The notes: generated by a model not told the origin, from the sequence alone. Counted from the first letter of the stretch, positions 8,348 to 62,515 are shown. The stretch is DNA of 64,000 nt from Antedon mediterranea (GCF_964355755.1 NC_092676.1:19388288-19452287), one strand, 5' to 3'. Translations and numbers: made by a program.

Positions 8348-9730
8348 ACTTAGAAGGAAAATTTCATCTTCTAAGCCTAAAACAATTTAAATACATCATG
8401 ATTGGTCGATCGTTCAATTCCATTCCATAATGCTTGTATGCGCTCGTACTTATCGCATTTTGGGGGAAAGGATAACGATAAATCGAAAAAAGTGTCCATA
8501 ACCAAGGTAGGCCTACAATTGAATTATTCTGTTCAATCTACGAGTATACACATCAATCCAATCATAGGCCTATTATTTTGTGTCTAACTGCCAACAACGA
8601 ATTGAAGAGCACGTTTTTAATCATGTCATTTTAACTTAGGCTTATTTAGCTTAAGTTTTCAAACATTATTTTTATATTTCTATATTGCCCCTTCCATGGA
8701 ACAACAAGGTGTTATACAGTTTACTATAAACATACACTAATTGGCTTTAATATATGTTTTATATTGCCCCTTCCATTGAACAACAAGGTGTTATACCATG
8801 GAGTAAAGAATAACTCCATGGTTATACACTTTACTATAAACATACACGAATTGGCATATATCCATCTGGCGCGCAGTGTTACAGATGTTGTAAAGCGATT
8901 AATTCTGTCAATTAATAAGTGAAAGGAATTTGTTTTTATAATTACATTTAACTGTTACTCAGATTTTGCAAAACAAACATGACATGTTGTTACCTAACAA
9001 ACATCTGCAAGCCATATTTATGTTATGTATGTATAAATAGCCCGAGGAATTTAATTCCGTAGATTTACGATTTCACATTTTAAATATTGGATGATGTTCA
9101 ACGCTTTATTTTCTTCAATATAAGCAACAAGTTTATTATATGGTAATCGTTCCATCACGTAGGGTGTTAAAGACTATTTAATTGAACGGCTTTTGGCCTT
9201 AATGCAAGTCTCCTTGGTCCTCTATATTCTTTGCTTTGTAAGTGGTATACATGTGTAGACCAAAAATTCCCCTGGCTCAGTTTGATCGACTTTGACATTC
9301 TTTTTACCGTGTATATATCATTTCCTTTTAAGTATAATCAAATTTAAGTTTTCTCTTTTCGCCGTTTTAAATTTATAAAAGTATTGCGTCTGGAATTCTT
9401 GCTAAAGATAGACGTATCAATATTATATGATATATGCATTATACATATTGTAATTAAAAAATAAACAGTGCTAAATTTGTATTTGGTTGTTTTAAGTTAT
9501 TTCTAAAATAAAGTTATAACATTAATCTGTTTGCCATATATAGGCTTTCTAAATATAACTAGAAAAGCCTTCTGACCGTATAAATATCTTTTTCTCAAGC
9601 TATCATATTCGTTTTCAACACCCATTTAAACTTAAAAATACTCATTACACAAGTTTCCATTGTGATAGAAATTAATGAATGAATTACTGTTAGGAGAGTT
9701 GTATTGAGTTTTATCGTGTACTTTGGCCTA

Positions 9731-9886
9731 AAGCTCTGTCTACACTATCAAACTTTATGTGACAAAAAAATGTGGACATGTCATATCATTACCATATTTG
9801 AGAATACCATAACCATATTTGAGAATACCATTACCATATTTGAGCACATCACACTTTTTTGTCAAACTAGTTTAATAGTGTAGCAA
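9731..9886. mobile_element. TCTACACTATCAAAC MITE, copy 2
   Basis: Left end AAGCTCTGTCTACACTATCA; right end AGTTTAATAGTGTAGCAAG. The inner block ACCATATTTGAGAATACC is duplicated compared with other copies. Confidence 0.75.
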
Positions 9887-10262
9887 GTTGTAATTTACAC
9901 CCGAATTTAGTCATAATTAATAAGCAAAACATTCGGCAATTTCCCCCACGGGATGGTACATCATATCACTAATGAGACCAATCGTGATTTTAATTTTTTT
10001 GTCGTGTAACGTGAATCCAAGGCGTTGTCGTTACAGGGTCAAAAGTGGGTCAGTGGTATCTGGTCATTTGTAAAACCAGTGCCGTGCCGGTGTCGAACTT
10101 GATTGGAATGTAACTGGTTGTTTTAAGCCGCCATGTCTGAACATTTTTGACAAGATTTCTCCACCGGTTTTACCAGGGAGGGGAAAAATATATTAATTTT
10201 CTCTCTGTTTTACTTGTTTGTTATGCACTTAGGCCTACTGTATTATTGTACCCGCGATGTAT

Positions 10263-10582
10263 TAAAGATGTATTGTCCCCCTGAAAAAAATAATTCTTTA
10301 AAAAAAATTTGTTGAATATTCCATTTTAATGTAACTTTGTAACACTTTGACCAACTTTTGGATCGAAAATAAATGTATTTACCTGAAAAATTTTAAGCAA
10401 AAATGGTCAAATTGGCTGTTTATTATTGTCATTTATTTTGTCATTTTATAAGTAAAAACATTATTTTTTTCGTTTTTTTTCTATGGAAGTGATTAACTTT
10501 ATTAAAACTACAAAATAACATATTCAAAGTATGATTTAATTAATCTTCATTTTTCATGTTTTGGGAGACAATACATCTTTAA
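10263..10582. mobile_element. TGTATTGTCCC terminal-inverted-repeat element
   Basis: Begins TAAAGATGTATTGTCCCCCT and ends GGGAGACAATACATCTTTA, so the termini are inverted copies of about 15 bp. It is AT-rich with no open frame. This is the best-delimited copy of a family also seen near 5.6, 32.3, 33.7, 37.5, 46.9, 55.4 and 61.3 kb. Confidence 0.75.
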
Positions 10583-11886
10583 ACTCATTTAGGCCTAAAC
10601 ATTTTCAAAAAACCTCTTTCATGTTTACAATGCTGAATTGCACCTATTTTGTGTTATAAAGTATAACAGTATACACTGTTATATACATGTATATGTTACT
10701 GTATAAACATATAAAATAGAAGAAATAACGAGACTCATCTTGTATTCCAATTAAAATATAGCTGGCCATTTTTTTCAAAGAACATATATTTTTTTTCTTA
10801 TACACACAATAAACTTTACCATAAACAAATTAACAAAATGTTATTATCTTAACTTTTATTATTTCATAAACATAAATATACATCGGTTATAAAAATGTGT
10901 AACTCTACAACCTGATATTTTAGAATCACTCGTATAAAATAGTTTGCTAGGCTATATGCAAGGACATTATTATTCGGGTCGTTAGCAGGAGATTTATTGG
11001 AAGATGCACCGTAGCTTTGTAACTACCTATAGTTAAAGCAATATATTATACAATGCCACTACCAAATAAAACTATTTATAAACAATTGTAAATTTGATAT
11101 CCTCCTGAGCTTTTAAAATTTGTCAATGCCAATAAATTAGGTAACAAGGAATTTAGCTACGGAAACCCCAGAATATATAGATAGCCTAGATGTTTAAACC
11201 ATTGCAATCAACTACAGGATGCTGAGCTCCGGAGATCAAAGGGGTTATCTGTGGATTCGACACGATCAGTTCAACGCCCCTTTAAAGGATATAAGAATGT
11301 ACTGTTATACGGTATATTTGTCGCATCCATACATACGATCAAAGGACTGTTACAAGTTCCTATCTTGGCAAGGCGAGCTCAGTGTCTTGTTAGATTGCCT
11401 AAATATATGCCCTAATAGTTTTATTTTGATAAGTTTAACAACGTAATGTTTACCTAGAAAAATTGCAATAAATTGAACCTGTCTTTTGGCCAATACTGTT
11501 AGCAAAATTGCGCTTACATTCTAATGCGTTTGAACTATTATATATAATGATACAAAATCTAATAAATACTTTTATTTAACCTATATTATTTACATAAATA
11601 AAATTATACACATGTTGAATTTTATCTTCTGTTGAAAGAAAGTAACTTTTGTTTTTTGTATTCTTCTAAAAAGAACACCTTCTAAAAAACACTAGGAGCA
11701 TATCATTAACTTATTCCAATTTAAAGAAAAACTCAAAAAGAGTTTGTTTTCAACGAAAACTTCGTTACTTTATTTTTTACTATGTATTTTTTTTTTCGTA
11801 TTTTAATAAATAAAATAAAGTAAATTTAATTATCAAAACAAAAGATTCGTGTTTACGGACTATCTTATAATGCTTAATTACTTGAG

Positions 11887-12928: not shown

Positions 12929-15900
12929 CTAGTTCCTACATTTTCCTCTTGGCGTTAAACCAAACGTGTATGGAATTTGATTACCCTTTCGAGATGTACA
13001 CGTTAGTCCCCTTTTACAAGCTCCAAGTACGCCGTATGGACCCATGCAAGACTGGCCAACCATCTAGAGTTTAAACAAAAGTAAAGTAATTAAATCAAAT
13101 CAGTTACTCATCCTCTTATAATCGGTTGTCACCAAATTAACCTCTCCTGACCAAGTCGCTGACTATAGTAGCTACGTTAACTATTATACACTTTAACCTG
13201 TTTGGGTAGCAAGTCACAATTGCAGTTGCTGCGTTAACTATACACTTTAACCTGTTTGGGTAACCAAGTCACAATTGCAGTTTCTGCGTTAACTATACAC
13301 TTTAACCTATTTGGGTAACCAAGTCACAATTGCAGTTGCTGCAGTAATTAGGCCTATACACTTTAACCTTTTTGGGTAACCAAGTCACAATTGCAGTTGC
13401 TGCGTTAACTATATACACTTTAACCTGTTTGGGTAACCAAGTCACAATTGCAGTTGCTGCAGTAACTATACACTTTAACCTGTTTGGGTAACCAAGTCAC
13501 AATTGCAGTTGCTGCAGTAACTATACACTTTAACCTTTTTTAGGAACCAAGTAAAAATTGCAATTGCTGCAGTAACTATACACTTTTACCTTTAGGTACC
13601 GTAAGTCAAAATTACAGTTGCAGTTGCTGCAGTAACTACATTTTTTTTTACTTGTTAACCTGTTTATGTAATTATTTAACAATCATTTATATTTGGTTAA
13701 CCTCATAAACTTCTACAAATAAGTTGGACATGATCCATAAAGCTAAAATATTACATAATTCTTGAGTACATGTAAATAATTATGATAATGATTTTTGGAA
13801 AATGTCGAACACCTCGGTTATAATATTATTAATAACATCATCTTGTTATATTTTGTATTGGTGGATGTACCGTAAGCTACATTTTCCTAGTTTGTAATGT
13901 TTTTGTTTTTTTGTTAAAAAAAATTCTATTACCTTTGGACAAACATCACAGCATCCGCACATATCTGATATCCTTTGTGCTCCGCCAGGACATCTCTTTG
14001 GAGTACGAAGACTACAGTATTGTGTCAACATTGAACGTCTATATGCTTTGCATCGACACCGATTAGCACTTACACTGTAAACAAACAAAAATGTTTGTAA
14101 ATAAAATAATTTCATGATTTGAAACAAATAGTTTGCTATGTACTGACGGCACAAACGTGGCGTGCTGTGTACGGCTCTTGTATGCGTGCGTCAACTTTTT
14201 GAATCTGATTTTGTGCGCATTCGTCAATTAAGATGGGGTTTCATTGGTCAAATCGCTTGGGTTGGTCTTACGTCCTTGCGTTGCGTCCTCGTGGGAACCA
14301 AGCTTTATGTATTTCTTTATTGTCGCTGGTGATATGGACAAAGCTGACGAGTGGTCAGACGTTTGCAAGCGCTTGTCTGTTTTTTAAACATTTTGTGGTT
14401 GAATCTGATTATTATTTCATTTTACCTATATTGAGCCTCTCAGAGACAGATAGTTTTTTTTTCATTCCTTAAGAAGGTTATGTGCAGCCATGGAGAAAAA
14501 TATAACTTATTTCTTCATGATGCAACTGATATTTTCAGATGTTTTATGAAGTAAATGTTAATCGGTCATCCAACTTTTATCACGATAATAATACGAAGCA
14601 GCGGGGTCGCAGTGGCTTGTATTTATAAACCACGGAAGGCTAGAGGCGACGCAAAAAACGTTTACAAAAGCATTATAAACGGCGTCTTAGCATCAACATC
14701 AAACGTGGCCAAATCGACATTAGTGTTTATCTACCCGGAAATACTGTTTATGTTAGCATAGCAAATTTCCATTAATTGACGGAACGCGAATTGAATTTGT
14801 AAACTTCACTGTTTTCTGCCCTGAGGCGATCTCGTGTTTGAACAGTGGGTGTATATGAACACCATCCTATTAAATATTTTTGCGGTTGAAAAATATGAAT
14901 ATCATATTTGTATTCCCATAGGTTTTCATTTTATAGTTGCATAGTAATATGTTTACAATTCATAATGTCAATGTTGTCGAATTAATAAAGCGGTCACAAT
15001 AAATAAAAAATGAATAAGAAACAGATTGAAAACAGTAAAAGTATAGTTCAATATCTACGTAATGTTAGATAGCATTAGCACATTGATGGAAATGGATGGA
15101 GATGATTGTTATTTATCGCACTGGACTTAATGTGGTCAAGCAGTATTCGTAATTCTTCATCTTGGCACAGTTTTTATTAAATAAAGATTATTTAAATACG
15201 ATAAATGTATTATTGTGACCTTTGGCCTTAATGGGTTATATAAATTTTGACTACTATACTAGTAATCAAATTTAATAAATAAATTAATTAATAATAATAA
15301 AACATGAAACGCATTTCATAAAATGTTATTGTATGGGAACTGTTTATGTGTGTACGGTATCTTCCTAATTCTTTAAACATAGCGTTTAATTTGATTTAGT
15401 AAACTGATGTATTTTACTATTGTAAATTCCGACCAAAAAGAAAGTATTTATAACATTATCATATAATTATTATGATAGTTTAACATTCCTTTAGTAAGAT
15501 ACAACTCAGACGGATAAAAAATGATCTCTTTACTACCATATCGTATATGATAAAACTCTAAATAAGCACGCTCTAAATCCATTAAAGAAAAATTAAATCT
15601 AAATTGACATAAGTGGAACATGCGATCCACAACAATATTCATGTACGTGATTTGACAAATAAATCTTAATTATAGAGAAAACCGAGAGCTGTTTTAGGTG
15701 GTATTTTCGCAAAAAAAATAAAAATATAGGCCTATATAATATATAAGGCCTATATAGAGAAACAAAATAGGCCTATAATTATTTGTTGTATTTAGAATTG
15801 GTAAATAACGTAGTTTATTTATTGTTAATAGGTCTTTGCAAAGTTTCAATGCATAATGAAATTAGGACAAACAGATTTTATCGAAAGTTCCGCTAATCTA

Positions 15901-18900
15901 TAAATAGGCCTACAATATTTGATTTATTTAGTTTTTTAAAACATTACAAAAAACGTACAAAATTATACAAACAATTAAACAACTTGCCAAGGATTCTCCA
16001 AGCGCACTTTATTCTTTATAACGGCCACAGACCTTATAATAATACATTTGAATTTATTGAATTATATTTTGCAACTAAGCAGACAATGATTCTTTATATG
16101 CAGCATCACCCCCAAAACACATAATTCTTACCCGGCTTCCCGGAAGAATCATCACAACATTAGACACTTTCCCACAGTGCAAAACTACTCTGCCGTTAAT
16201 GATATAATTGGGCGCAATCAAGACAGCTAAATGTCTATCGAAGAAAACACTGGCGTTCTATTAACTGTGATCTTGCTTTTGTGATACGATTTTAAGTAAG
16301 AGATTGGCATCATGCCATTTCACATAAGCATCTTTTATGAACAACATAGCATGGTATACACATCTTGCTGTATCGCGTTTCTTGATATAACGGTCACAGA
16401 CCTTATACTTAAGTATCCCTACTGGGTGATATTATCTTTCTTTTAAATGTAGGCTAATTTTAGCTTTCTTATCCCCAGAAATTTACCACCCGAATGAACT
16501 TACCGATTTCTGTAGCCCTAAGGTATGCATTTGTTGCCGATTTTTCTTTAAAAGCTTTTTTTTAGTTTCTGTGTTTATTCGTTGTTAAATCCGTTGGCAT
16601 TTTTATTCACCAGTGGTCGTCGTATTCACCAATCGCGCACTTTAGTGAAATCTCCCTTAAATACAAAGTATTTCACTTAAGTCAATAAATTAAGTTGTTT
16701 TCCTTGTTGTTGTCAGTTGTATTCACTTAGATAAGATAATTGTAAAGATAGACCTATGGTTCTTTAGTAAGTCTGAACAAGGGTGAATTGACGTTTGTAG
16801 AGTTTCCTAATACATTGTAGTCATTTCAAGGATGCTTAAGTTTGAATGGTAAACACGTCTCCTCATTACAAATTCAACAATTTTATATATGTATTTCAAT
16901 GCCTATTTGTGATTGATTTTGCATACAAATTTTATAGTTACCAAATTCTATCGGAAAATGGTACTCGTCTAAATGTTTGCAATCGCAAAATTCGCAATTG
17001 GGAGATGTACCCCAAGTTACTGTATTTTTTATATAGGATTTTGTACATAAATAGAAATAAACTCGTCTATTGACATAGTTAACAATAATAATAAAAAAAT
17101 AAAAATAAATAAATAAATAATAATAATACGAATTTGTAATGCGCCAATTCCAGCAGTAAGTGAGAGAGCTCAATTTGAAGAAAAAGATGAGTTTTCAAGG
17201 CAGATTTAAAGGCGATAGTAGAAGAACATGATTTAATATAGAGGTGGGTAGGTCATTCCATAAGCGAGAGGCAGCAGAAACTGATTTCTTTACATAATAC
17301 GATGTCATGATTTCCAAACGTGAGAGGGAAATATATTGATGCAATGTCACTGATAAGCAGGAAAAACAGTAATGTTCACATACAACCTTCGTGCTCTATG
17401 CAAAGATGAGAAATACGTGAGGTTATGACATGTTCTGTAGATAAAAATGTCATTTGAGACATAAAATGAAGTTGTAGGGGCAGGTGTACATGGTGAAAAC
17501 AAGGGATTAAATTCTCATTACCATAGTTATGTCAGGTTTACCTCCGGAGGTAAATGTTGTTTTGAATTGTAGAAATATAATTTTTTGATACCGGTTAAGA
17601 TAATAGGCAGGGGAAATCCGTAAGGATATTTTGAATAAATATTAATCTGAAAGCAAAATCAAAATCGCATGTTTTATAAAAACGAATAGTTGGGAATGTT
17701 ATTCAACGTAATTGAAATTACAGAACATAGGCCTAATGGATTTTTTTTTGTGCTGATAAAAGATTTTAAAGGAAGTGAGTTGTCCTTTTTGCATGTAGGT
17801 ATTCCTAGTATAGTATTCATTCATATATTCTAGTTTAGCATAGAGGACAAAATGGTCATTAAAAAGTTTCATTTAGGCTGTCAAATGGGGAGCACACATT
17901 TAGCGATATTCTATGGGCCCTCCTCCAATCTAACTCCAAACTTCATCTACTTACTTTCCTTCGTTATATCTTCTTTCCTAGACTTTCCCCTGTCTGTCGT
18001 TTTTATGTGTTTTTTATGTTAGTCCACCAGTCGGACGAGTTCAGTATTATACGTATAAAAACGCCATATATGCCAAAATATTTATATTTTTACTAATTTC
18101 GGTCTAGGATCTAGACTACCCCTTCTTCTGTTAATCACTTAAATGACAACTTGACCGAGAACCATATTTTAAAAACGTATTAGGGATGTACATGATTTCA
18201 GAACAATCGTGAGATTTACAATATCGCAGCGCGCGCTCGCAATACAGCCGTCGCCGCCGTAAATTGATGTGACGTCACAAGTGCATAGCAAAATCTACCT
18301 AATGAGTTTTCACTGTTGTTAACATACAAGAGATAGGTACTTCGTCACGTCACGTCACTTCAAGTTGTCCTTTAATATAGGCCTACTTTACTTTAAAAAC
18401 TACTGTCTGAGTAGTAATGTTTTCATGGTAACATTCCTTGTTAATTATTGTGTGGAAAGGTATCTTTAATTGGGTTTTGTTTGTAAGGTCATGCCTAATT
18501 GTAGTTAATAAAATCAAAATGTTAAAGAAATTCAATTTATAGTGACTTGTAGTATTTTGATGAGGTCGTATAATGTAAAAACATGTTTAATTTAAAAAGA
18601 TATTGAACTAATTAAACACATTTTTGTGATTTTATTCGTAAATGCGATTATGTAATTATGTTTAAATGAAAACGAATTCCCATAAGAAGACTTTGCATAA
18701 ACTTACAAAATAGATTACACAGTTTTGTATACTCTATGACAGACAAATCGTCAATTACCGTCTGATAAATTAACAATTGATGCTATGCCAGAAGTCAGAC
18801 TTTAGTATTAAGAACAGACGTTTTCAAAATGTTTAACCCGTGAACATGTAGCAAAGCTCAGCAAGAAACGTTACGTCTGGCGTCAGTCCAGATCTGCCTG

Positions 18901-19456
18901 TCAACCGCCTGCAAAGCGGGGAATTCCTCCACCTTTTATACTAACATAATATGTTACTAAAATCATATCTTGGTAAATGGTAAAATATATTATACTTTAC
19001 CATTTACCAAGTTATGATTTTAGTGTAAAACGGTACCCAGTGTTATTATTAGGCCTAAGCTAGGTTACGCCCAGAAAGATGCATATCTGGTTAAATTTCA
19101 TCCTAACTAGGCATATGCCTTAATGACATAACTCAAAAGAACACCACATTCTAAAACCGTCGTTCGAAGAACAGACGTCTATCATGATATCTTAGAGTTC
19201 GTATTGCAGAATTTGTTTCGCAAGTTGGAAAGAATGCACTCAAAAGCAAACATAAATGAGGACCAACTGACTATTTGACTTACTAAACGATGTAAGTGCA
19301 TGCCCTACGTAGTAATGACTGTACTACTACTATAACTTCAATACCGTCACGTTTTCGGTTGTTTCTAGGCCTAAACTTTTTTTTTAAAGAATAAGATAAC
19401 ACTTACCATGCAAGACAAGCAGATAACATCACAACAAGTACCAAATATTTGGTCAT
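12929..19456 (-). CDS. Secreted single IGFBP-domain protein (gene 1, 108 aa, 3 exons)
   Basis: Coding exons on the minus strand are 19454-19456 (ATG) down to 19407, 14074-13933, and 13063-12929 (stop TAG 12929-12931). Phases fit: exon 1 ends TG, exon 2 begins T (Cys), and intron 2 is phase 0. Exon 1 is a signal peptide (MTKYLVLVVMLSACLA). Exons 2-3 form an IGFBP N-terminal domain with 12 cysteines, including RCPGG and the diagnostic CGCCxxC (MCGCCDVCPK), then QSCMG, LTC and GKC. Domain relatives bind insulin-like peptides; the ligand here is unknown. There is no thyroglobulin or other domain, so it resembles the single-domain invertebrate IGFBP-like proteins. A donor-like GTAAGT follows the stop at about 12.92 kb, so a 3'-UTR intron is possible. 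A tandem repeat fills intron 2. Confidence 0.85.
13163..13640. repeat. 55-bp minisatellite in intron 2 of IGFBP-like gene 1
   Basis: Eight or so units of 55 bp (TTTGGGTAACCAAGTCACAA, TTGCAGTTGCTGCGTTAACT, ATACACTTTAACCTG). The unit beginning at 13310 is exactly 61 bp because GGCCTA is added after TA (TAGGCCTA at 13349-13356). Confidence 0.9.
17075..17480. repeat. Dispersed interspersed repeat with AAAT/AAT tract
   Basis: An (A)AATAAATAAT tract is followed by AATGCGCCAATTCCAGCAGT and a block reading AAAGATGAGTTTTCAAGGCA ... GGCAGCAGAAACTGATTTC. This layout is typical of a non-coding interspersed repeat common in aquatic animals; the family assignment comes from memory and is tentative. Confidence 0.45.
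18956..19024. repeat. 29-bp hairpin
   Basis: ACTAAAATCATATCTTGGTA (arm 18956-18984) is the reverse complement of 18996-19024 with one mismatch; the loop is 11 bp. Small palindromic element or hairpin relic within intron 1 of gene 1. Confidence 0.8.
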
Positions 19457-20640: not shown

Positions 20641-22144
20641 AATATTCTCAATTGTACTTAGTATAAAGTACAATTACAATTTCTTCGTAGTAGTTATTTA
20701 CCAGTTATCCTTTATTATCATTGACCCCTATTTAGACTTACTACCATTTCCTGGGTACCCGCAAAATAATACTGACGACACAGTTCCATTTCTTGTTTTC
20801 TTTAGAAAACTGTTATTACACTAAAGTGGAATCAATAAATTCGAATAATAATTCACAACGTGATATTTTTTATGAAACAAACTGTTCAAAGATAATGTTC
20901 AATTATGTTTGTTTTAGGAAATTATAAGTACACTTACGGAAGGAATTTACCTAAATTGGATTTAAAAATTACCCGTGCGATTTTTTTAAAGAAATAAATG
21001 GTTTAGAGTTTCGATATAGCTTACAATTTTTTGTTTGTTTTAGGAAATATAATTACGTCACTTACGGAAGATATGATATTATATAAATACTTAGATCAAG
21101 ATCATGAGAATACCCATGTGATATTTTTGGAGAAATCTTTCGATATAGGTTTCAAGTTTGTGTTTGTTTTAGAGAATCATGGAAGTGATATCCATGACAC
21201 AATTATAGACTTAAAACAATGCAATGTAGGCCTATGTGACATTCTGTTATCTAGAAAATAAGTGAATTGACAAATGACAACCGACGGTTGGAATGATCCA
21301 TCTCTTATGATTGGTCAAACTTTTTGCGTTGCGTCCTATAGTGGGAAGCAAACATTAGGCCCTACTATACTTCAAGATTTTGGGAAATCCAACTACAACG
21401 ACCTGGCCAACATTGCGCAGATAGAATGAATTGAGAATGTCATAAGCTTTAGATATACTATGAAGATGAAGTAAATGTTGTTATTTACAATGTTTACCTT
21501 TCGTATTTCTCTGATCTGTGTGAACTACTAATCTTATTTAGCTTCAGCTGTAAATATTTTAAATCAACCGCATACCTAATGACGATGAGTGGTATTTAAA
21601 GTGTAAACTGTACAATCGAGTGTGTAGACTATTTCCCTGGATGTGTGTGTCTGTACATAAGGCCAAACAAATATATATTTGTTAAGCATCACCTCCCTCC
21701 ACTGATTTTAGAGCCGCCTCTGTTTTTTTTCTTAAAATAACGAAAAAAACTTCGAAAAATCACGATAAAATCGTAATAATTGATTATCACAGGAATAATA
21801 ATAATAATTTATTTGTGAAAAAGAAAATAAATGCGACTGTAGACAAATCTATCGACTACAATCTACACATTTATAAAATAAAAGGTTCAATCAGGTGCAT
21901 TTATGCAAATTAGTTGCAGGTGCTAACTATCCATTCATTGATCTGTTGAAATGAGATCAGAAGACAGGCAACCTGAAGCTAGAAGGACCAGTTTACATGG
22001 TGTATAGTAAGTTATGTATGGTAAGTTACCGCAATTTAGACAGTAGTTCAGTAAGTCACCTTTTTAAAATCTCGTTATCGATGTAGGTTGCTTACCTCAC
22101 TTACTGCTGACGGATCGTGTATCGTGAAAATCTTGGTATACTGG

Positions 22145-28056: not shown

Positions 28057-28489
28057 TTACTACTCTTTCAATGAAAATTGTTACGTACTTTTTTTCTACT
28101 ATTATATAGGTATATTATTATAGGCCTATGTTTTATTTAGGTCTACTCCTATAGAGTTATATAGTATTTTGGCGGTTTAAAATCTGACCTATTACACATA
28201 TTAATACATATATCCCAACCAATCAAATAATTTGGCCTTACAGGAATTCCGTACAGATACTGTGACGTGTAAACCTCTACTATTTCCATTTTATCTCTTC
28301 TTTGAATGTAATATAACGTTTTGTCGGTTTCTAAATAAAGTGATTTTGTTTGAACTGAACTGACTTCAGAATAGTATCCGGTATAGGTGAAAGCGTCTTT
28401 AACGCGTCGTCGTGCTGTACCGTAACCATTCTGTACTGTGGTTGGACGACGCACTAATACTCTTAAAGCTCAATTAGGTGGAAAATTAT

Positions 28490-29929: not shown

Positions 29930-30076
29930 CTTCAAACTAGTTTAGCAAAATGTGTGATGTGCCCAAATATGGTAGTGATATGCCCAAATTTGGTAGTAAT
30001 ATGACGTCATCGTGTCCATTATGGGCACATCATATTTTGTCACATACAGTTTGATAGTGTAGGCCTAGACAGAGCT
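29930..30076. mobile_element. TCTACACTATCAAAC MITE, copy 3, carrying a GGCCTA insertion
   Basis: Left end is degenerate (TTCAAACTAGTTTAGCAAAA); right end is TTTGATAGTGTAGGCCTAGA then CAGAGCTT. Other copies read GTGTAGACAG at this point, so this copy has exactly GGCCTA added after TA (motif 30060-30067). Confidence 0.8.
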
Positions 30077-43971: not shown

Positions 43972-44190
43972 AACCAAACTTACATGGGGAAATAAATAAA
44001 GAAACAGACATGAGGAGTTTACATTTAATTTGAGATTGATTGGGTAAATCATACAATACACCGTGCAATGTCCTGATGTACAGTCTATTGTCTGCTACCG
44101 GCAGCAGGCACCACGTGTGAGCGTTGATGTGTTGACAAACTCGAACAAACTTGAAAAGGGTAGGCAAAATGCATGTTGTTTTTCATAGGC

Positions 44191-47100
44191 CTATTCAGAA
44201 TTGTTGATATTATCATCAATCTCACATCCAAACTCACTTGCAGCTGAAAAGAATGATTTAAGTACACAATCTTCTCTTGACGTGTTTTCTAATTTCTTCA
44301 ATTCATTTATAATTTTCTCGATTTCAATAGCAGCTTCGCCAAGATTATTCTCATGCATATCAATTGCTGTTTTGACGATTGTGTACACGTCAAGCCCAAT
44401 TGCCATCACACCAACTGCTATTCCAGCTGCTCTGAATGCTGTAATACCGATAGTCTTAACTGCTGCTCCGCCGATGTCATCTAATAGATGTAAAGTCTTT
44501 TTTCCCACTAAAAAAAGTTCAAGATTATAGGTGTTAGGTATTAATAATAATAGTTTATCACATAGCACATAAGCAGTACAGATTCTAAATGCGCTGTACA
44601 TGAATTGAAGTAAAACATAAAATAGAAAAATTGCTTTTTATTTGATTGTAGAGTTATATTTAATAATAACTAGTTCTCAAATGGTGTTCTGGAGTGTATG
44701 TGTTTCGGACAACCCTTCATCGTCCCCTATCTCTATCGAACATTACCTAAACAAGGCTGCCAATATTTCAGTCTACAGTAATATCATTTTTTTAAATTAT
44801 TTTTTATTATAACCAGGCAAAAGCATTACATTTCTATTAAATTGTAGACATTTTAAGACACCTTTACAATTTTTAAATTTTAGAGGGTGAAAAATCTAGA
44901 TATTTTTATTTATGATTCTTTTTGGAGAATTCTAAACATTAATATTAATCTTATATGATGCTCATCTTGGAAAACTGTTTTGGTTGTGCATGCATGCATT
45001 TCATTTATCATTATTCATTATATTGTCTGCCTGGCAGCGCATTTTTTCAATGCATAAGAATAAAAGCCGTGTTCCGCAGGCAAAAATTAACCGATAATTA
45101 CCGAAAGAGTAAAAACAGGGTTTAACCGATTCCACTCGGAGAAAATTAGCCGATAATAATAATCTCATTAAAATCTGATGATACTTATCGGATAAATGCG
45201 GTAATGTTTAATTGTTTACCTAATAAGACAAATTGTTGTGTTGTAAGTGGCCACTGTGTTGTTCGGTAATAACTGATCATGCGCAAGTTATTTTTTTAAA
45301 TTAACAGATAACCCTTAGGCCTACATTTTTTTTGGGCTGTCGAAACGCGGCCATACCTGTTATTGCCGAGGATTGCAGTATGCCAGTGATGACCGAGCCG
45401 GTATTAGTCACTATCTTCATAACAGGAACAGACTTTCCACATATAACTTGAATAACTAGAAGGATAGATGTAAACATTAATGCCTACCATTCACATGGTA
45501 AGAAATCTTCAATAAACACGATTTCAACAAACTCAAAATACAACAAAATAAGCCTACAGTGTAGTCACTAGCAAACGTTTGTTCGGCAAACTCCAAATTT
45601 TATTTGGAGAAGATTGGGCCTACTGGGGGGCCTGTGTAGACAGCCTCCAGTAACCTTCTTTAAACAAAAATGTGATAGAGTAACCAAGCTTTACGAAATA
45701 AACAAAAAGCATATAAAATTACCTTTACATACACCTTTAACTAATCCAATGACTATCATTGTTTTTCTTGCGATACCTGTTTTAAAAAAAAGATCAAACA
45801 CTAAAAGCACACTATTACATAGTACAAGTGATGTATCTGTCAATTATAAATTGATTTCTTCTATTATGAAGTAAATCCTAATTCAATAATTATCATTCCT
45901 TCCTTTAGCTTTCGCAGTAAATTGCAATCGTAAAATAATAATTAGGCCTAACTTCAATAAATTCATAAAAAAGCTTCAATAAATAATTGGTATCAAGTTG
46001 ATAATAAATTCCTTTATGGTATTTACTTACGTATAGCAACTTGTATTGCGTTTTTGACTTTGTTAAACACGACCACAATTTTATCAAATTTCTGTGCAGT
46101 TTTCATATGGGCTTTAATAGCGTCGTGGTATTTCTTTTGAAGTGTTTCCAAGTTTTCGAATATGTTGCCATCCTGTATCAGTTCATTAGCTGTTTGAGCT
46201 GATTTGCTTTGTAATATTTCATCTGCAATTGAGGCACCACCAGCCACAACTCCGCCTGTAGCTCCGACAGCCATTCCGCCTATAACAGCAACTGCAATAG
46301 GTGTAGCAAATCCAGCGGTGAGGAAGCTTAGTCCAATTGCACCTATACTCACAACTGTTCCAACTATCGACACTGACGCACCGGTTAGCTTAGCAATTCC
46401 AGACCGTTTTTTACGAGTTTTTATCTGTTCAACAACTGTCTTTAGATCTTGTATTAATATTGTTCGACTTTTGTCCCATTTAATAACTTCATCTTCAAAT
46501 TCCCTTTTAGCATCCTGCATTTTGCTGAAAGACTCTACGGTTTCTATCGCATGAGATTCTGTTTCTTCTTTACAGTTATACTCATCACTGAACAAGGTGT
46601 TTGCAATCACTGGTATGGCAGGAATGGCAGTCTTGATGCCTTCAAAGATCATTCTACAAAATAAAATGTTGGCACTATAAAAGTTTATTAATATTCAAAC
46701 GACAAATAGGCTCAGCAATATGTTGTGAGGAGTATGATTTACCCTTCCGAAATTATTCCTTCCTTGCAAAAGATGGTAATATATAAATAAATAAATAAAT
46801 GGTAACTGCACATAAGCTAATTATCTTTTAAATGGGCTGATAAAACAAGCAATGATGATAATCTAGCATTTGTGCCTTTAAAGATGTATTGTCGCTCAAA
46901 AACATGAAGAATGAAGGTTAATTAAATCAGATTTTAAATAGGCGGGTTGTTTTGTAGTTTTAATAAAGTTAATCACTTCAGTAGAAAACAAGGCCAACAG
47001 CCACTAAGTCGCGTGCTACAATGCATAGTGATACCGGACCGACAGACAGACCGACCGACCGACAGACAGACCGACAGACAGACAGACCGACCGACCGACA

Positions 47101-48508: not shown

Positions 48509-49002
48509 TGTATTAAACTTTCGAAAGATGTTTTAACGTAGTTTATCCACGGACTTAATTTATAGGTCCATTGTTTATCTATCTATCAAATATCCAACCA
48601 ATCAGTAGTCACATAATAAAATTGGTACAGGACACTGTAGCTATTTGTTATGTTGGGTGATAAAAGTATTGAATTTGTAAATAAAGAGTCTGTACTATGT
48701 TTGACTGGTCCAATCATTTACTGATAACCCGGTTCAATAATATTAGGAACAATAATGTTTGGCCTATAAACCATAGGCCTACCATTTTTAATACCTATCA
48801 ATCCAAAGGCAAATTACTGAAAAAAAGTGCTGTGTGCATCAGTGACTGAATGTAAACAAATCAAAAATGCAAATAGATAAAAAGTAAAACAGCCAGATAA
48901 AAGTGCTTTTAAAAATATGTTTAATATATATATATACTAATATAACAATGATTGGCCATCCGTTACCCGTTACTATACTTATCAACTTCCAAACGATATA
49001 CT

Positions 49003-49464: not shown

Positions 49465-50368
49465 AAGCTAAAACATAACGCCATCACCGATCAAACACTA
49501 TAGCATTCCACCATTATATCGGTAAAATTCATGTACTATAATCTTCACAAACAAATAATATAATAAGCCTAAAATGTATAAATTCAACACTTACAATTTA
49601 TGTTTTTATTAATAATCCATTATTATAGATTAGGAGATTTAAACATAAACTATGCAAGAAACCTTAAAATCTAACCTAGCTGCTTATATTTCAGCAACAT
49701 TTATAATTAACTAAATTTTATTCAACGTAGGCCTACCCCAGAAACATAAGCCAGTTATTTGTAATAAGTAATGTATTTACATCAACTATCTCCGTTACCG
49801 TCATCCTCAAACTCACAATCATAAAATGGAATCTAATTGAATATATTTCTAATCATAGTAATACCCGATCTTTATATATGAAATTACAACATCTACTAGC
49901 AACATAGAACTTGCAAGTTATGGTCATGATAAGGATGGAGTATAAAAAGAATCAGAAAGATACTACGGTACGTCTACAATATGTACAACAGTCATTAAAT
50001 CTAATATTAATAAACCGGCCGTTTAGAAAACAAAATGAAACCGATGAAAACAAATAGAATGAGCAAATAATTTCTTCATTCCGTAATACGAGGCAGTTGA
50101 ACTTTCTTAACGATCACTGGGTTTATCTTATTCGATACGCCTTTTGTTATCTCATATCGGTGCGAAATGAAAATTGTAATTAATGAAAATTGGTTAATGA
50201 TACTCCTACTGTCAAGTAATAATATGTATTTGTAGGCTTATCTCAATCGCCAATGTAAACAGTGATTTTAAGATGCCAGGGTGCCGCTTAAATATACCTT
50301 GTTGTTAAATATTGTACCAGTTTCTATTTGACTTGGATGTTTTAACATTGTTTGAAGTATAATAGATT

Positions 50369-50374: not shown

Positions 50375-50560
50375 TCTGAGTGAACTATAAATATGCCACT
50401 GTGAACCATTACGCCTAGTTTTAGTAAAAGCAGCATTCATTTGTTCATAAAATATAATAATTATCATTGAGGAAAGATAATGCTTAGGGTAAAAGACAAT
50501 CTGCGACCTAGAATCCCAGAGAATGTTGACTATTTTAGCTAAATACTGTAGGCCTACTTG

Positions 50561-53500
50561 TTAATTCTCCTGTTCGTCAATCTCACATTTCTTTGCAATA
50601 GAACATACTGATTGAAGCATTACATCCTCTGCCGTAATTTTTTCCAGTTCTTTCATAAAACGTTCGATTTCAGCAGCAGCCTGATCAAGATTGCCTTCAT
50701 GCATACAAATTGCTGTATTAACAATTGTGTATATATCAAACCCAATGGACAACACTCCAACCGCCATCCCAGCTGCTTTTAATGCTGTCATACCGCACGT
50801 CTTAACGGCTGCTTCGGCAACGCCATCGATTACCCGTAAAGTCGTCTTTCCAGCTAATAAAAAAAAGACGTGTTAGATAGTAAATTTTTTTCATGGTACG
50901 TAACTTGAAAAAAACACAAACTTTTTTTCTTCCCGATGTGTTATATGGTTATAGCAGTTATTCATGACATTAACGTTACGGCATAAATTAAGACGATATG
51001 TTATACATATATATGTTATAGTGAGATTTCTTATGATTTTAACACGTTGGGGGAAAATAATGATAACCAGGGTGTGTTAATATGACTTAAACTTGCACAA
51101 ATGTCACTCATTTAGTTCTGAAACATAGTAGGCCTATCGGTTAAGGTTGTAGCTATATGCGGTTGTTTTTTACCAGACTCATTTGATTGGTAACGTGGCA
51201 TGTTTTTGTTATGTTTACAGTTCACAGAAAATGTTTGCACCCGTCGTGGGTCTGTTTCTGCTGCATAGCACCGAATAAACCGATTATTTAAAAAAAACTA
51301 ACCGGGTATTTTGCGCTGCCATTTAAGCGGTTACCACAACAGTTTCTGCTCATAAGTTAATTTATTCAAACCGTTTTAACCGGTTAATTTTATGCAGCAG
51401 AAACAGGACCCGTGATACAGCATTCACACGTATTTAAAGTACTGTATCCAAACAGGCTAGATTGAGAAAATATTGTTGAAGCGAAATTCCTAGAATCCAA
51501 ATTAAACTGAAGGTTACTGAATCAGTCAAACATAAGGATGGAAATAATTCATTCAAAAATAGCAGGATAATTATGTACAATTTAGTGTCGTCTGAATGGT
51601 TGGTATTTATTTCACTTGAACAATTCTCAAGCGATTCAAATCCTTTCATTTCTTTACAATTGTTTATCTTTTGTTAAAATGAAATACTACTTACACCCCT
51701 GCGGCAAACAATCACAACAACAATTGGAATATAATAATAATAATAATAAACAGTATTTATATAGCGCCTAATGGATCACTGACCCCTCTAGGTGCTTTAC
51801 ATAGGACCTTAACTAATGGTAATAAACTATCCCCCGCCGGACACCATTCCGGTATTTATTAGTCGAGGTTTCGGGGATGGAGACAATCAATAATGTGGAA
51901 AAAAAATGTAACTAAGCTTAACTATGCTTAACTAAGGTAAAACTATCCATCAGTTTCAATTTAATGCAACATGCATTCAATTATTAAACTCCATTATTTT
52001 GAGTTTTCATTCCCAACAATAGAGAGATATAATGGCCATTTCGCATTGAGAGCAACCAATAATATGCCTATACAAGGGTATGCATTTTCTTTACCGGCTA
52101 TTGTCGAAGACTCCAGTAGGCCTATTCCAGTGATGTACAATCCACTACGTGTCACTATCTTGAGAACAGTAACTTTCTTTCCATCAACGTCGGTTACATC
52201 TTATATTAAATTAAAAATATAAAGATATTTTAGTGCATTGATTACGTCAGAGTACAGGTTGCGTGAAGTAAAGCATTCATTACTATTGTAACCATAGAGG
52301 AAAAATGTTATACAACGTTTTAGCAGTTAACGAATGGGAAAATTACCTTTAAGTAGGCCTACTTGTTCAACTATTCCAATGATTTTATTAAGTGTGTCTC
52401 CGATTCCTGTATGGATTTTTGTTAAATAAGATAAAATGTAGTAATTAGTTAATTAATCATTGAAAACATGTGTTTTTGTTAACAAAATATGCCTATTATT
52501 AACCGATAGGAATTAATGGTTTCTCTAAAAACCGATAAACACTGCCTACTACCAAGAAATTCAGTCTTGTTTACTGCTAAATTTGTTGGTAAGCAATTAT
52601 TTGTAATGTAGAGATAAGATAGTAAAGATAGTCTCCTTATTCAGTATGTTTGTTTTATTGGACATTAATATACTTTTCAAAAGAGCAATTCAAATTTGTA
52701 TTTTAAATATGGTGCAGTATCTAAATAAACCTCTATATATAAATTATATTAATATTATATTTACTTACTTATAGCAACTCTGTATGCGTCTTTAATTTTT
52801 TCAAAAACGACCATGAATTTATCAAATTTCTGTGTACTTTCCATGTGACCTTTAAAACCATCCTGGTATCTCATTTGTTCGGTATTTAGTTCTTTGAATA
52901 TTGTATCATTCTTTATCATCAGTTCATTGGCTGTTTTAACTGATTTGCCTTTTAATATTTCATCTGTAATTGAGGCACCTCCAGCCACGATTCCACCAGT
53001 AGTTGCAACAGCAACACCAGCTACAGTGGCAACTGCTATAGGTGTACAAAGTCCAGCAGTCACGAAGCTTAACCCAATTGCGCCTATACTCACAGTTGTG
53101 CCAACAATTGAGGTTGCAACTCCAGTTAGCTTGGCAATGCCAGTCCGCTTTTTGCGAGTTTTCATCTCTTCAACAACTGTCTGCAGTAATTCTATCAATC
53201 TCTTTCGACCTTCGTCCCATTTAGTAAAGGCATCTTCAAATTCAAGTTTGTCGTCATTAATTCCTTGAAAAGTCTCCAGAGTCACAATCGCATGGCATTC
53301 GGTTTCTTCTTGGCTTTGATTTTTACCATTAAACAAAGTGTTTGCAATCACTGGTATGGCAGGAATGATAGTTTTGATGCCTAAAAACCCCATTCTGCAA
53401 AACAAAATAATACTAACGTAAAGAAAAGGATTTCGATTTTGAAGGAGTGGCACTGGCTGTCAGATTCGTCATCTGAGTTGCCTGTGGTGTGTTAATTGTT

Positions 53501-54560: not shown

Positions 54561-55895
54561 CATACTTATATACCCAAAATATAGATTTAATAGACCAGAA
54601 CTTCACTCAATATCCTAGTTAGTTTACCTTTTACAATTTTCTTTAAACTTAAATTTTCATTTAATTTCAATATATAATTCCATCGCATGGTAGGCCTACA
54701 CCGTAAGAGCAACACTCAATATCAACATAAAATTAGATAAACTTAAAGTTGATTAACATCAAGATCTTAAAGAAAGAAAAGAAGAATTAACCAATGCGTT
54801 TTGATACTCATAAAACATATGACCTAATTACCAATTCATTGCTTGAAGTATGCTGAAAAAATGAAATGTTGAAAACAGTGAGAAAAAAGCGAAGAAAAAG
54901 TGAAAAATAAAAACATATGCTTAAAATATTAGAAATCTGAAAAGGATCAAAGACAAATTAATTACAAAGCTGATTTCTTTCCAAGAACATACTGTAGTGG
55001 AATATAAAAGGAAAACGAACCAGTGAGCAGTCAAAAATATTACCATCTATTCTTGTAGAGAAAGTGAAAGAGGCTCTAAGGCAAATGCAAGAAAACAAAG
55101 CTCCAACACTGATGATGAACATGAGGCAATGACACATCCAGCTCATAACAATATACAACAAAATATTAGAAACCAGAATAAATGTAGAGAAGCAATGATC
55201 CACAAAATCATGACAAAACTGACATCAACCATTACCGACCAAATGAAAATTATCACATGTACAAAATATTAGAGGGAATTATTATACCTCAACAAAATAA
55301 TATGGATTACGATCGCTCAAAGAGAAGTTAAGGAAAATTATTAAGACAAGGAGACACTTAAGATCTTCACTGCATTGGAAGAGGTGTTTTATTAATCTAA
55401 AAAATAGAGTAAATATCACTTATAAACATTTAACCAAAACCACATTGACTTCCTGCCTATGTTTTGCTTTAAATTACAGTTTTTTTAGGTATGCACTATA
55501 TCATTTTTTTTTTCGATCCAATTTTTGGTGAAAGTGAATAACTATTATGTGACATCAAAATTGCATATTCAACAAAAATATTTGTAAAAATTACTTTGTC
55601 AGGGGGACAATAATTATATATATAATTAATAATAATAATTAATAATTATAGCATGTGATATTATTAGCAAATATTTAAAATGTAGTTTTGAAACTTTCCC
55701 ATTACAAACAATTGCCATAATTCTTTACATTACAATACACCCATCCTCTGGGACTTATTTTCAAATGTAGCTTAAAACAGTACAATTCTGGTGGCCATTT
55801 TGATGTGTATAGATGCATGCAGTACAGTAGCAATGGAAAAGCAAGAGAGGGGGAGGTGGTTGTGGTGGATGGAGAGACACATTTTTGTTACATGT

Positions 55896-56029
55896 TTGTC
55901 TACACTATCAAACTAGTTTAACAAAAAAGGTTTGATGTCCCCAAATATGGTAGTGATGATGTCCTCGTGTCCATATATGGGCACATCACATTTTTTGTCA
56001 CATAAAGTTTGATAGTGTAGACAGAGTTT
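55896..56029. mobile_element. TCTACACTATCAAAC MITE, copy 7
   Basis: Left TTGTCTACACTATCAAACTA; right AGTTTGATAGTGTAGACAGA. One of the cleaner copies. Confidence 0.8.
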
Positions 56030-56051
56030 AACATTTGTGTAGCAAACATGT

Positions 56052-57596: not shown

Positions 57597-58692
57597 AGTG
57601 GGTGAATGAGTAGTGAGATTTTCACAGAGTGTATAACATATGATATCGCTTATTTGGGACTCAGGACTAAAATATTTACTCTACAACAATATAGGAAAAC
57701 CAAAAGTGGCCATGTATAAATTTGAATAAGCCGCAATTATCTACGACGAATGAAATAGGCCTACTACTAGACATATTCACTTTGTAACCGACGGGATATT
57801 TCACTGTATAATAATATATAGAGATTCTATGTTCAATAGAACATAATTCCAAGTCATATGAATTGTGTGACCTTTTACCGCTTATGCTTTAAACACTCCT
57901 TGAATTATACTATTGATCAAGAGTTTCAGCTCGGATCGGATAAATGTTGAAATCTTACCTTGACTTTTGACATCGCATGACCTTGGTTGGCGTCCTCCTT
58001 CAAGCCCTCATACTCACCCTATCCTAGGATTTGTTTCCCCAATTCAACTTAATCGGAGCAATTTGAAAATGTCACTTTGACCTTGACATTGCATGACCTT
58101 GACGACCTAAATAGGTTTTTTCTTATACCGAGCTGCACCCACCCACCAAGTTTGAAGACCCTGCCGCCTCTAGTCTCAGAATAAGGTCAATTTTTAGTCT
58201 ACAGCTCACTATGTCGGTCGGTCGGTTGGTTGGTTGGTCGGTCGGTTGGTCGATGAATGGAACATCCCAATCTCTCAGTCTGCCAGAGTTTGGTTTAACA
58301 CAAGTAGGTCAATTTATGAGCCCTTGGTTTAACACATGCGGTAGGTAAATATATGGGCCCTTTGAGAATAAACTTGCAACTTACTGTGAATTTTCGTCCT
58401 GTTAGATGTAATATAAAAATATATACAAATAAACTTTATTACTGACATTGTGGATAGGCTACAGTTAGATATATAAACACATTATTATATATACAAATAA
58501 ACTTTATACTGACAGTTCCTTCTCAACGTTTGTATTAATTAATAATTACCAATAATATAAACGTCGAAGTGGTGTATCGTTTATAGGCCTATAAAACATG
58601 AACAAAATATTTCGTTACTGAGTGGATAAAGAATATATTTAAAAATTGTTCCTCTTTGTACCTATCCGCTTTCCCATCCCTCAACCCTAATG

Positions 58693-58944: not shown

Positions 58945-58981
58945 CTAGATGGTACGCGAGCGAAGCGAGCGTACCATCTAG
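58945..58981. repeat. Perfect 13-bp-arm palindrome with GCGAGCGAAGCGAGC core
   Basis: CTAGATGGTACGC (58945-58957) and its exact reverse complement (58969-58981) flank GAGCGAAGCGA, a GC island in AT-rich DNA. Confidence 0.85.
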
Positions 58982-60211
58982 TTTATACAATTTATTGTAC
59001 CACAGCACATTTCACTAACTGCCATAATCTACAATTTACCAAGCATTTTGATACAATTTTATCACTTTTTTATATTAATTTTTTTATATTTTTTGCTTAT
59101 CTAGGAGGTAAACGCCTCCCTCGAATAAACTCCTCCCTCAAATAAACATCATGAACAATAAATACGGTAATCTAAAATTGAAACTGTGTGCGTCCTATAC
59201 AACACTATACATACATAACATTTAGTAGCAAAATGTGGTTATCTGTTATCTTATTATTCGATCCTAAAAATCTTCAGTGGAGAAAGACTTCTGCCCCTAA
59301 TTACTCAAGACACTAGACCAGATGATTTGCGTTAAATTTGCCTCAACCATGTGAGTGTATGGCCAGTAGTTAGCAATGACAAAGTGTGTGTTTATTAAAT
59401 TAGGAGAACTACCATGAACAGTTTGGAACCACAAGCCGGTTAAAAAAAGAAAATCACAAAGTAAGTTACTTCTAGCATTCTGAAAAGAACTGTTGAGCTT
59501 GACGTTTCTATCAATTTTTCAGTCTTTCTCAGGAGTCAACAATATTTTATAGCATTATTATAAGTAAAATGAAACTATTTAAAGCATCAGTATTCGCTGT
59601 AAAAAAGATTTTGAAATTATAATATTTTTTCGAAGCAATATTAATATTTACAGGAATTCAATTCAATTCAATTCAAAATTTAATTTCACCACAAAAGAAA
59701 AAATTATATAGATAAATAAGTATTAACATGAAACTTTTAGTGAAATTGGTACCCACTGTAAGCTTTTAGCGTGGGAACCTATAATTATATCAATACATAA
59801 TATAATAGGATAAGCATAATTAAAACATAATAAGTAAGTCTATATAAAATCTCTTATACAACACAAAATAAAACTATAATTAAACAATGAATGATGAATT
59901 TTGGGATAAAAGGTATACTGAATGTCAATCTTATATATATATTATCTTATATTATATAATATCGTCTTAACTCTGTGATATACAGATATTATATATATAT
60001 TTAGATAGATTTAGAACACAATATCAAAATATTTTCTATAATCTTTTAACCACAGACTGTGTAATATCACTTAAATATCCATTGATAGATAAATAGATAG
60101 ATAGATAGATATAACTGTTATCATATTGTTTGAAAGAGAAAAAATGTATATCAATCTGTAAATTAATAAGTTACCGTACCGTAGTGATGATCTCATTATT
60201 GTCCAATGCTT

Positions 60212-60589
60212 GTTCTGCTAGCGATTTTTTTTTCCGTACGAGAGTTCCTCCATCGGTTCGTTTCGGACTCAATCGACTCTTCGGTAAGCCACCGATGCTC
60301 ACTGATGCGTGACAGCAACCACAAGACAAAACGTGAGCAGTACAGCTTTTTTTTTCACGAGTGACAGATTTATACATACTGTACATACTACTAGAGGCTA
60401 ATACTATACTCACTGTAAATATAATAATAAATATTAATAGTAGTACTGAACGTCATTGTAATAATAATAATAGGCCTAGAATTTTAATAATATAATACTG
60501 TATAGGCAGCCACAAACCAATGTATGTACCATCAGATTCACAAACCGATGGAGGAACTCTCGTACGGAAAAAAAAATCGCGTTCTGCTA
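60212..60589. mobile_element. 360-bp TIR element (MITE) with 9-bp target duplication
   Basis: The element runs 60221-60580. Its terminal inverted repeats are 40 bp with one mismatch, GCGATTTTTTTTTCCGTACG then AGAGTTCCTCCATCGGTT. It is flanked by the direct duplication GTTCTGCTA at 60212-60220 and 60581-60589. No transposase is encoded. Target length fits Mutator-like (9-11 bp) or hAT-like (8 bp) enzymes. Confidence 0.92.
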
Positions 60590-60774
60590 ACGTTTTGGCC
60601 TTTCAACTGGTGTCAGTTTTTGCAGATGAAACGTTTGAGAATCCATCCATTTTTATAGTGATGGTTTAACCTTAGAATAAGTTCCAATACCTAAAATATT
60701 TTTTTCTGTAATTGGTCAACAGAAGCATGATGAAAAAAAAAAATGAATGACATTAGTGATTCCCTCCTTAATCA

Positions 60775-62515
60775 CTAATTTAGATTCATTGCTATCTGTG
60801 AAACATGGATCAAGCGAAGCATGTTAATAGTTTAAATATACCTGGCTACCAATTTATTCACAAAGATAGGAATGATAAAAGAGGAGGAATAGGTCTTTAT
60901 ATTTCCAACCCCCATTTAATTTAACGTGCGTCATGACCTATCTCAAAACATACTCAAATATTGAATCATTATTTATTTAAATTCAAACAAATAATAATAA
61001 AAATATAATTTGTGGAATAATTTATCGTCCTACAACTCAATGCTGTACATTATTTAATGATCAGTTTTCTCTTGTCTTACAAACAATTATTAATCTTATC
61101 TTAGATCTTACCTTATAGGTGACATGAATATTTACTTACTACACTACTCTGTGACCATGATACTCGGATACATAGATAATTTACTCTTAAACTTTTTTTA
61201 CCCACTTATTACCAAATTTAACGGAATCAATGTACCGCATGCTTCACTTGAATAAATCCCCCCCCCCAAAATTTTTTTTTTAAAGATTTCGAAAAAAAGT
61301 GGGTAATTTTGAAGTATCATAATAGTTAACTTTCACCAAAAATTAGTCACAAAAAATCATTTAACTGAAATAAAGACTTTTTTTGTTCAAAAATTAAGTT
61401 TTCGATCTAAACATAATGCAACGCGCTTCTTGTTTGGCTACTCTGTATGCATAATCATAAAACTTTCTCGCGATGTGTGAAAACACATTCTCAACCGTGA
61501 CGAGTTGTTTTTGGCTAGAATTTTCGACTGAAAGTGAATAATTTAATATTACTTTGATATGGCCAATTTAAATTTAGAATATTTTGACCTTCATTTTCTC
61601 CCAAATTTATGTTTAAACTAAATTTCTTCCAACAATTCTAAACTGTTATGCAAACAATGAGGACACAATGTCCAGTCACTAAATAAAGTGTATTGTTGAG
61701 CAGACAGATATAAGCATCATCACAAAGTTGAAAATTAAAACCCTATAACTGGTAAAGGTTAAAACATTGAAGGATAGACAAACGTTGTTAGATAAACCAA
61801 ACCAAGTTAAATGTAACACCATTAGGCTATTCATTCAAAAGTTTAAAAATATAGAGTATATAGGTGACTTAACTACAGCATACACTTTATTATGTTATAT
61901 GGTATAACTAAACATTCATGTAACTGACTCGATGAGATGAGAATAGTCTACGACATTTACACATAGGCCTACTATTATTTATTATCTATTGCAGTATTAA
62001 CAATCTAAATATTAAATATTTTTGACCTTTATACGAAACACACTGCTATATTTATGTATCAATATAAACATAATCTATTACCTGAATCATTTAATAACTT
62101 ATTTAGTACATCTGCCTCATTCCATAATTACTCAACTAGAAACAGGTCAAACTACTGTCCACAACTAAAACGCACCAAAGTCGGACAGCAATGTATTTCC
62201 TACCAAGGAACACATATTTGGAACAATTTAACAGACTATATAAAACAATCCCCCACTTTAAGTTTGTTTAAACAGAGATTAAAGCAATATTATAACAATA
62301 GAAATATTTAAGTTAAGTAAATCACATTATGTTATTTTGGTTTGTTCTTTTTGTTTGTACTAATTGTTTGATCTTTTTGTTAGGGTTACATGCTTAAAGC
62401 ACTTGTGCTTATTTTGTATCCCATTCCATTATCTTATTATTTGTATTGTATTTGTATATGTTTTTATTTTGATTATGGAATAAAAATGTCGATGAATTGA
62501 TTGAATTGAAAATAT
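60775..62515 (+). pseudogene. LINE remnant A (CR1/L2/Jockey-type), eroded
   Basis: Pieces in order: endonuclease-like fragments at 60.78-61.14 kb (AICETWIK; IPGYQFIHKDR; GGIGLYIS; IIYRPTTQ; GDMNI) in shifting frames; an inserted repeat at 61.26-61.60 kb; then the ORF2 C terminus at 61.99-62.31 kb (TAIFMYQYKHNLLPESF, STRNRSN, GTHIWNNL, SLFKQRLKQYY, stop 62309-62311). A 3' tail ends GAATTGATTGAATTGAA. The reverse transcriptase core is missing. Non-functional. Confidence 0.7.
61260..61600. repeat. Long-subfamily TGTATTGTCCC repeat inside LINE remnant A
   Basis: Shares AAAGATTTCGAAAAAA, GGGTAATTTTGAAGTATCAT, GCTACTCTGTATGCATAA and TTTGATATGGCCAATTTAAA with 37.5-38.0 kb, in the same orientation. 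The ends are degraded. Confidence 0.7.

Follow-up and report, generated by a model that had tools for sequence, protein, structure and literature searches.

Tc1 elements usually prefer AT-rich targets, and Minos, a member of the Tc1 group, leaves a six-base footprint that consists of four tip bases and the duplicated TA. Short GC-rich palindromic insertions at TA in AT-rich DNA are also represented by the GC clusters of yeast mitochondria. For Sleeping Beauty, an element of the Tc1 type, the footprint is CAG between TAs (PMC8151067); the cut by its transposase lies three bases within the tip, 3' overhangs are left on the flanks, and end joining leaves CAG (PMC7827188, PMC8151067). The published target site duplications of the PHIS superfamily, to which PIF/Harbinger belongs, are TWA, AT, ANT, CWG, and C|TNA|G (PMC4482050). 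HIP1 (GCGATCGC) of cyanobacteria is an extremely over-represented 8-bp palindrome (PMC4390886).

We analyzed a stretch of 64,000 nucleotides from Antedon mediterranea (GCF_964355755.1 NC_092676.1:19388288-19452287; hereafter the window), in which the palindrome TAGGCCTA recurs. The Sleeping Beauty/Tc1 footprint (TA-CAG-TA, TA-CTG-TA) resembles TAGGCCTA in being a short tip remnant that end joining leaves between the two copies of TA, and the CAG/CTG class is present in this genome at the same TA of a MITE that receives GGCC. TAGGCCTA differs from it in that the remnant has four bases and is palindromic, which gives one product, in that its targets are preferentially CTAG/GTAC, and in that no donor with such tips was found in the ~300 kb of sequence examined directly. 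The CTAG/GTAC preference is unlike the usual AT-rich preference of Tc1 elements and counts against a Tc1-type reading. Other features are those of a Tc1/mariner-type footprint: GGCC occurred at TA with the TA duplicated and was absent from the non-TA position compared in the same MITE, it recurred on both strands with unrelated flanks at most sites, and a transposase of the superfamily is present. The Minos footprint has the same structure as the one proposed for TAGGCCTA, but its tip sequence is different and non-palindromic.

In regard to PIF/Harbinger, tips starting with GGCC occur here in a Harbinger-like family, but PIF/Harbinger duplicates TTA/TAA in this genome and ISL2EU duplicates AT, whereas TAGGCCTA sites have a 2-bp TA in contexts such as GTAG, ATAT, CTAG, and GTAC, neither a TWA duplication nor the AT duplication in A|AT|T of the ISL2EU group. 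HIP1 is bacterial and is discussed in terms of methyltransferases, whereas TAGGCCTA sites, where testable, are mostly insertions at TA. The yeast GC clusters are longer and organellar; TAGGCCTA sites insert six bases and are nuclear. The kind of scar is known, and its type and scale are new.

Over-representation of TAGGCCTA

Exactly 35 TAGGCCTA sites were present in the window between 8508 and 61971, and dinucleotide shuffles gave 0.53 on average and never more than 3, in agreement with the preliminary description, which had reported about 35 exact sites with fewer than one expected. The sites and their empty counterparts are as follows (strand "." for all entries except the plus-strand MITE copy).

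8508-8515 and 8565-8572: TAGGCCTA, exact count
10230-10237: TAGGCCTA in the compound TAGGCCTACTGTA, a GGCC scar adjoining a CTG scar
10590-10597: TAGGCCTA, single, exact count
13349-13356: TAGGCCTA within a single unit of the 55-bp minisatellite array at 13185-13621; TA empty in the adjacent units
15727-15734, 15768-15775, and 15905-15912: TAGGCCTA, exact count
17728-17735, 18378-18385, 19050-19057, 19366-19373, 21227-21234, and 28121-28128: TAGGCCTA
30060-30067: TAGGCCTA at the TA of a MITE terminal repeat; the same TA is independently filled in other copies genome-wide
33475-33482, 34779-34786, 39072-39079, 39091-39098, and 43343-43350: TAGGCCTA
43428-43435, 44186-44193, 45316-45323, and 45943-45950: TAGGCCTA
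45379-45380: empty TA in an exon of ApoL-like copy 1, counterpart of 52117
48774-48781, 49728-49735, 50549-50556, and 51129-51136: TAGGCCTA
52117-52124: TAGGCCTA in a minus-strand coding exon of ApoL-like copy 2; in-frame gain of Gly-Leu
52354-52361: TAGGCCTA in the adjacent exon of ApoL-like copy 2, in-frame Gly-Leu; the TA of copy 1 is empty near 45730
54691-54698, 57756-57763, 60471-60478, and 61964-61971: TAGGCCTA, exact count
55933-56034, plus strand: paralogous MITE copy with the TA empty (GTGTAGACAG), counterpart of 30060
58584-58591: TAGGCCTA carried by a high-copy repeat, common to L005:828 and L011:5481

A genome-wide count, as the preliminary description had proposed, gave at least 128,871 TAGGCCTA against at least 1,589 of the reversed word (354 Mb, 11 large chromosomes; genome search counts are lower bounds), and ten random 8-kb stretches of other chromosomes (80 kb) contained 23. 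The excess is genome-wide and therefore not peculiar to the window. In a 226-kb sample, in which the large minisatellite and all fetched copies of the MITE had been masked, TAGGCCTA showed the strongest over-representation of any TA-N3-TA or TA-N4-TA word (84 vs 2.2 expected). TACAGTA/TACTGTA (190 vs 55 expected) and TAGGCTA/TAGCCTA (61 vs 20 expected) were among the strongest words after it in this sample. Decayed copies were present among the one-mismatch variants of TAGGCCTA, in a signal too noisy for dating. The motif is indeed absent from the young LTR element and from the minisatellite at 1.4-5.0 kb, as described earlier, yet this is uninformative at ~550 sites per Mb. A search of the window against Rfam gave no match, and our literature search found no paper that treats TAGGCCTA as a genomic repeat.

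Insertion of GGCCTA at TA

The preliminary description had read the motif as an addition of GGCCTA after TA in four comparisons, each of which was reproduced. The minisatellite unit at 13349 has 6 extra bases relative to the neighbouring units, and the MITE site at 30060 is cleanly filled (GTGTA-GGCCTA-GACAG vs GTGTAGACAG). ApoL-like exon 4 (52117) reads ITGI-GL-LESS vs ITGI--LQSS, and exon 3 (52354) is 6 bp longer, which is translated as an added Gly-Leu. The ApoL identity comes from a Pfam match (PF05461, 1.7e-6) in copy 1 only, of which copy 2 is a paralogue. The insert has six bases, with neither terminal repeats nor internal sequence of its own, so it is not a mobile element itself.

The MITE family with TTAAGCTCTGTCTACACTATCAAAC ends (window 29947-30075 and 55933-56034; C1:410894-412378) is extremely abundant, and its end is amplified in places as 42-bp tandem arrays. 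A genome search gave 16,095 exact empty matches to 15 bp of the MITE end, a part of which sit in tandem arrays, so that fewer are independent. We queried the MITE TA genome-wide with ATAGTGTA-N(1-13)-TAGACAGAG, which gave 116 matches, 100 of them listed. The inserts among the 100 matches listed were mainly CAG (18), CTG (11), G (8), GTG (7), and GGCC (6), and more rarely C (4), GGC (2), GCC (1), GGTC (1), and GGCATAGGCC (1); GGCC thus accounted for 6 of the 10 four-base inserts among these matches. GGTC is a decayed GGCC and GGCATAGGCC is a double insertion. The G and GTG inserts look like ordinary tandem duplications because they repeat adjacent bases, and apart from such local duplications CAG/CTG is the main other recurrent insert class at this TA.

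A second TA of the same family contained CAG 8 times, CTG 5 times, and GGCC once. Among 64 insertions at a nearby position without TA, in the same end of the MITE, there was neither GGCC nor any of the CAG/CTG class. The contrast between the TA and the non-TA position was borderline for GGCC alone (p 0.05) and strong for CAG/CTG (p 9e-7). The fetched GGCC-carrying copies were spread over the MITE tree and occurred at both MITE ends, which indicates separate insertion events. These results strongly support the insertion of GGCCTA at TA, with independent recurrence at one MITE TA in at least 8 copies and at both ends. The insertion is recurrent and specific, has a target preference, and is paralleled by the CAG/CTG class.

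CAG/CTG class and Tc1-like elements

TACAGTA/TACTGTA was ~3.5-fold over-represented and was found as CAGTA/CTGTA insertions at TA; such insertions were seen in the window minisatellite at 1410-4996 and at L029:2581 and L031:711. CAG/CTG is a second, Tc1-type footprint class, by our estimate at least as numerous as the GGCC class. Transposon scars are usually studied locus by locus; here GGCC and CAG/CTG together form a genome-wide indel signature, which marks ~0.4-0.6 percent of the TAs sampled. Such a signature lets past transposition be counted without surviving elements and target preference be measured. The effect of scars on proteins can also be asked, as two ApoL-like exons in the window gained Gly-Leu.

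The ends of a 6.9-kb Tc1-like element at C1:7918686-7925610 read TA-CAGTACAGCTAA (TA-CAGTAC), and its tips match the CAG class. It contains a DDE_3 transposase, a second ORF, and a third ORF; the second ORF resembles the BEN-domain ORF of a relative on C2, and its own Pfam scan gave no match. The genome therefore has TA-targeting elements of the scar-leaving kind. Tc1-like transposase genes lie opposite the second ORF on C1 (L058, L046, L059), on C2 near 9905357 (L056, L047, L057), and at C5:13043777 (L045). The copy on C1 ends in TA-CAGTACAG and bears GC-rich subterminal repeats, the C2 copy has a BEN domain (PF10523) in the second ORF, and the third ORF is present in both copies. A search for the element ends at the C5 locus did not find them, and our literature search found no paper describing an element with a Tc1-like transposase and a BEN ORF. 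Tc1-type transposase (PF13358) gave at least 8 genome matches, some with long open frames.

Target preference and clustering of TAGGCCTA

The flanking bases at ±1 were complementary in 53 of 115 TAGGCCTA sites (29.7 expected, p 2e-6); farther out there was no clear excess. Relative to background, CTAG contexts were 6.1x and GTAC contexts 4.7x as frequent, and ATAG/CTAT only 0.12x. CAG/CTG sites had no such flank symmetry, and the two classes were therefore probably made by different enzymes.

The sites were also clustered, as 35 of 126 had another less than 100 bp away (~10 expected), and the 14-mer TAGGCCTAGGCCTA, a double insertion, occurred 3,605 times genome-wide. An insertion into CTAG would make two new CTAG targets, and self-seeding of this type would account for dense clusters. 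Low-complexity clusters of CTAG, TAGGCC, TAGCC, and TAG were observed at L001:1500-2600 and in three further stretches (L050, L051, L052); three of these clusters lie near DDE_Tnp_4 elements.

Proposed mechanism and search for the donor

TAGGCCTA is probably the footprint left by the excision of a cut-and-paste DNA transposon that targets TA and has GGCC at both tips. We infer the transposase, the overhang length, and the donor identity. The donor element would insert at TA and duplicate it, and on exit the transposase would cut four bases into the tip on the non-transferred strand, which would leave a GGCC 3' overhang on each flank. Because GGCC is self-complementary, the ends would anneal and be joined into a single palindromic scar, the symmetrical product TA-GGCC-TA, with a net gain of six bases. 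A cut three bases inside the tip would give TAGGCTA/TAGCCTA, which is likewise over-represented. The scars would have accumulated over a long time and would be mostly neutral, even in exons, because six bases preserve the frame, and some sites would later have been copied inside other repeats. With a palindromic tip only one, uniform scar is expected, which would make this class unusually easy to spot in other genomes.

The idea of a footprint of a TA-targeting transposon, put forward in the preliminary description, gained indirect support from the CAG/CTG class, which is the known Tc1/Sleeping Beauty footprint; the expected TA-GG...CC-TA donor was not found in the ~300 kb. In this sequence, no inverted repeat with TA-GGCC ends and no large insertion with a TA duplication qualified.

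Several candidates for the donor were rejected. The alignments of a MITE-like family with TAGGCCATTTT (window 5684 and 33669) continue past GGCC, so that GGCC is internal. A Harbinger-like 1.8-kb family with GGCCATRTAAAAAA tips occurs at L013:5513-7308 and in other genome copies (59 matches to the tip pattern), and its GGCCATRTA tips are accompanied by a TTA/TAA rather than a TA target duplication. An ISL2EU-type element (C8:577590-582033; L054, L053) contains a DDE_Tnp_4 transposase and a YqaJ-like ORF; it has AGAGAG tips, on which ground it was rejected, and an A|AT|T target (AAT/ATT), as described for the ISL2EU group. The abundant DDE_Tnp_4 transposases gave at least 150 matches, and element ends were not located in the five other copies fetched. 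The Tc1/BEN elements fit the CAG class and not the GGCC class, given the CAGTACAG ends on C1 and a left end on C2 that is probably CAGTACC, and none of the PF13358 matches could be linked to GGCC tips.

The number of Tc1-type transposase matches, a lower bound, looks small for so many scars. A slow build-up could yield many scars from few donors: by our own estimate with an assumed rate, if scars are neutral and the haploid genome gains ~2 of them every thousand generations, ~129,000 would be reached in 60 million generations. GGCC was ~5x rarer than CAG/CTG in the MITE, and the genome-wide excesses differ less; the GGCC donor may therefore be mostly extinct, and the two classes may differ in age. 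The genome would thus hold a readable record of a transposon no longer easily found.

There is a modest chance that the ~129,000 identical six-base insertions were written by a TA-specific process unlike the described footprints, which seeds its own CTAG targets. This process would be due either to an unrecognised group of transposases, with GGCC as the tips and CTAG/GTAC as the targets, or to a programmed system of excision, possibly limited to the germline. It is unlikely that the insertions arose without a transposon, in an ultra-short insertion process such as the preliminary description had named as its alternative, through breaks at TA that are repaired by a polymerase or end joining adding GGCC, with the stagger duplicating TA. 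The absence of a TA-GGCC-ended donor from the ~300 kb would agree with such a process, and the palindromic flank preference could also mean a nuclease cutting NTAN'. However, a fixed four-base sequence is hard to get from untemplated repair, and GGCC occurs together with a CAG/CTG class whose sequence agrees with known transposon tips.

Comparison of paralogous sites

We compared 128 TAGGCCTA sites, 32 of which had a paralogue. A clean 6-bp empty site was found in 13 of the 32 (3 of the 13 in one array), and a substitution instead of an insertion in only 3, two of which match the same decayed GGTC copy. These numbers bear on a spread mainly by copying, in which the motif belongs to one or several repeat families or to low-complexity short tandem DNA, with most of its sites inherited. 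Some sites fit this account: the 58584 family has the motif in all copies seen, and dense CTAGGCCTAG clusters exist, as does the 14-mer. As the main route it is nevertheless quite improbable, since most sites have unrelated flanks, the MITE carriers are independent, and empty sites outnumber substitutions.

The motif at 58584 is an old insertion copied along with its carrier repeat; it also occurs in other copies of this repeat, and not every site is therefore an independent insertion. The window segment 58500-58990 is part of this high-copy repeat, which is ~97 percent alike in dozens of copies and has internal duplications, with TAGGCCTA fixed.

A germline-limited donor, with TA-bounded elements removed from the soma in each generation and the scars kept in the assembled tissue, would explain many scars with no donor visible in the ~300 kb. 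We consider it very improbable, because slow neutral accumulation from few donors suffices, and we know of no animal that eliminates short TA-bounded elements from its soma in such a manner. If an 8-bp site for binding or modification were under selection, an idea discussed for HIP1, the strong over-representation of a palindrome would fit; this reading is largely refuted and has next to no probability, given that the sites arise as 6-bp insertions at TA in MITEs, minisatellites, and exons, that base changes are few, and that a parallel non-palindromic class behaves likewise. Further pairs of filled and empty sites were found at L050:577 and L008:2110.
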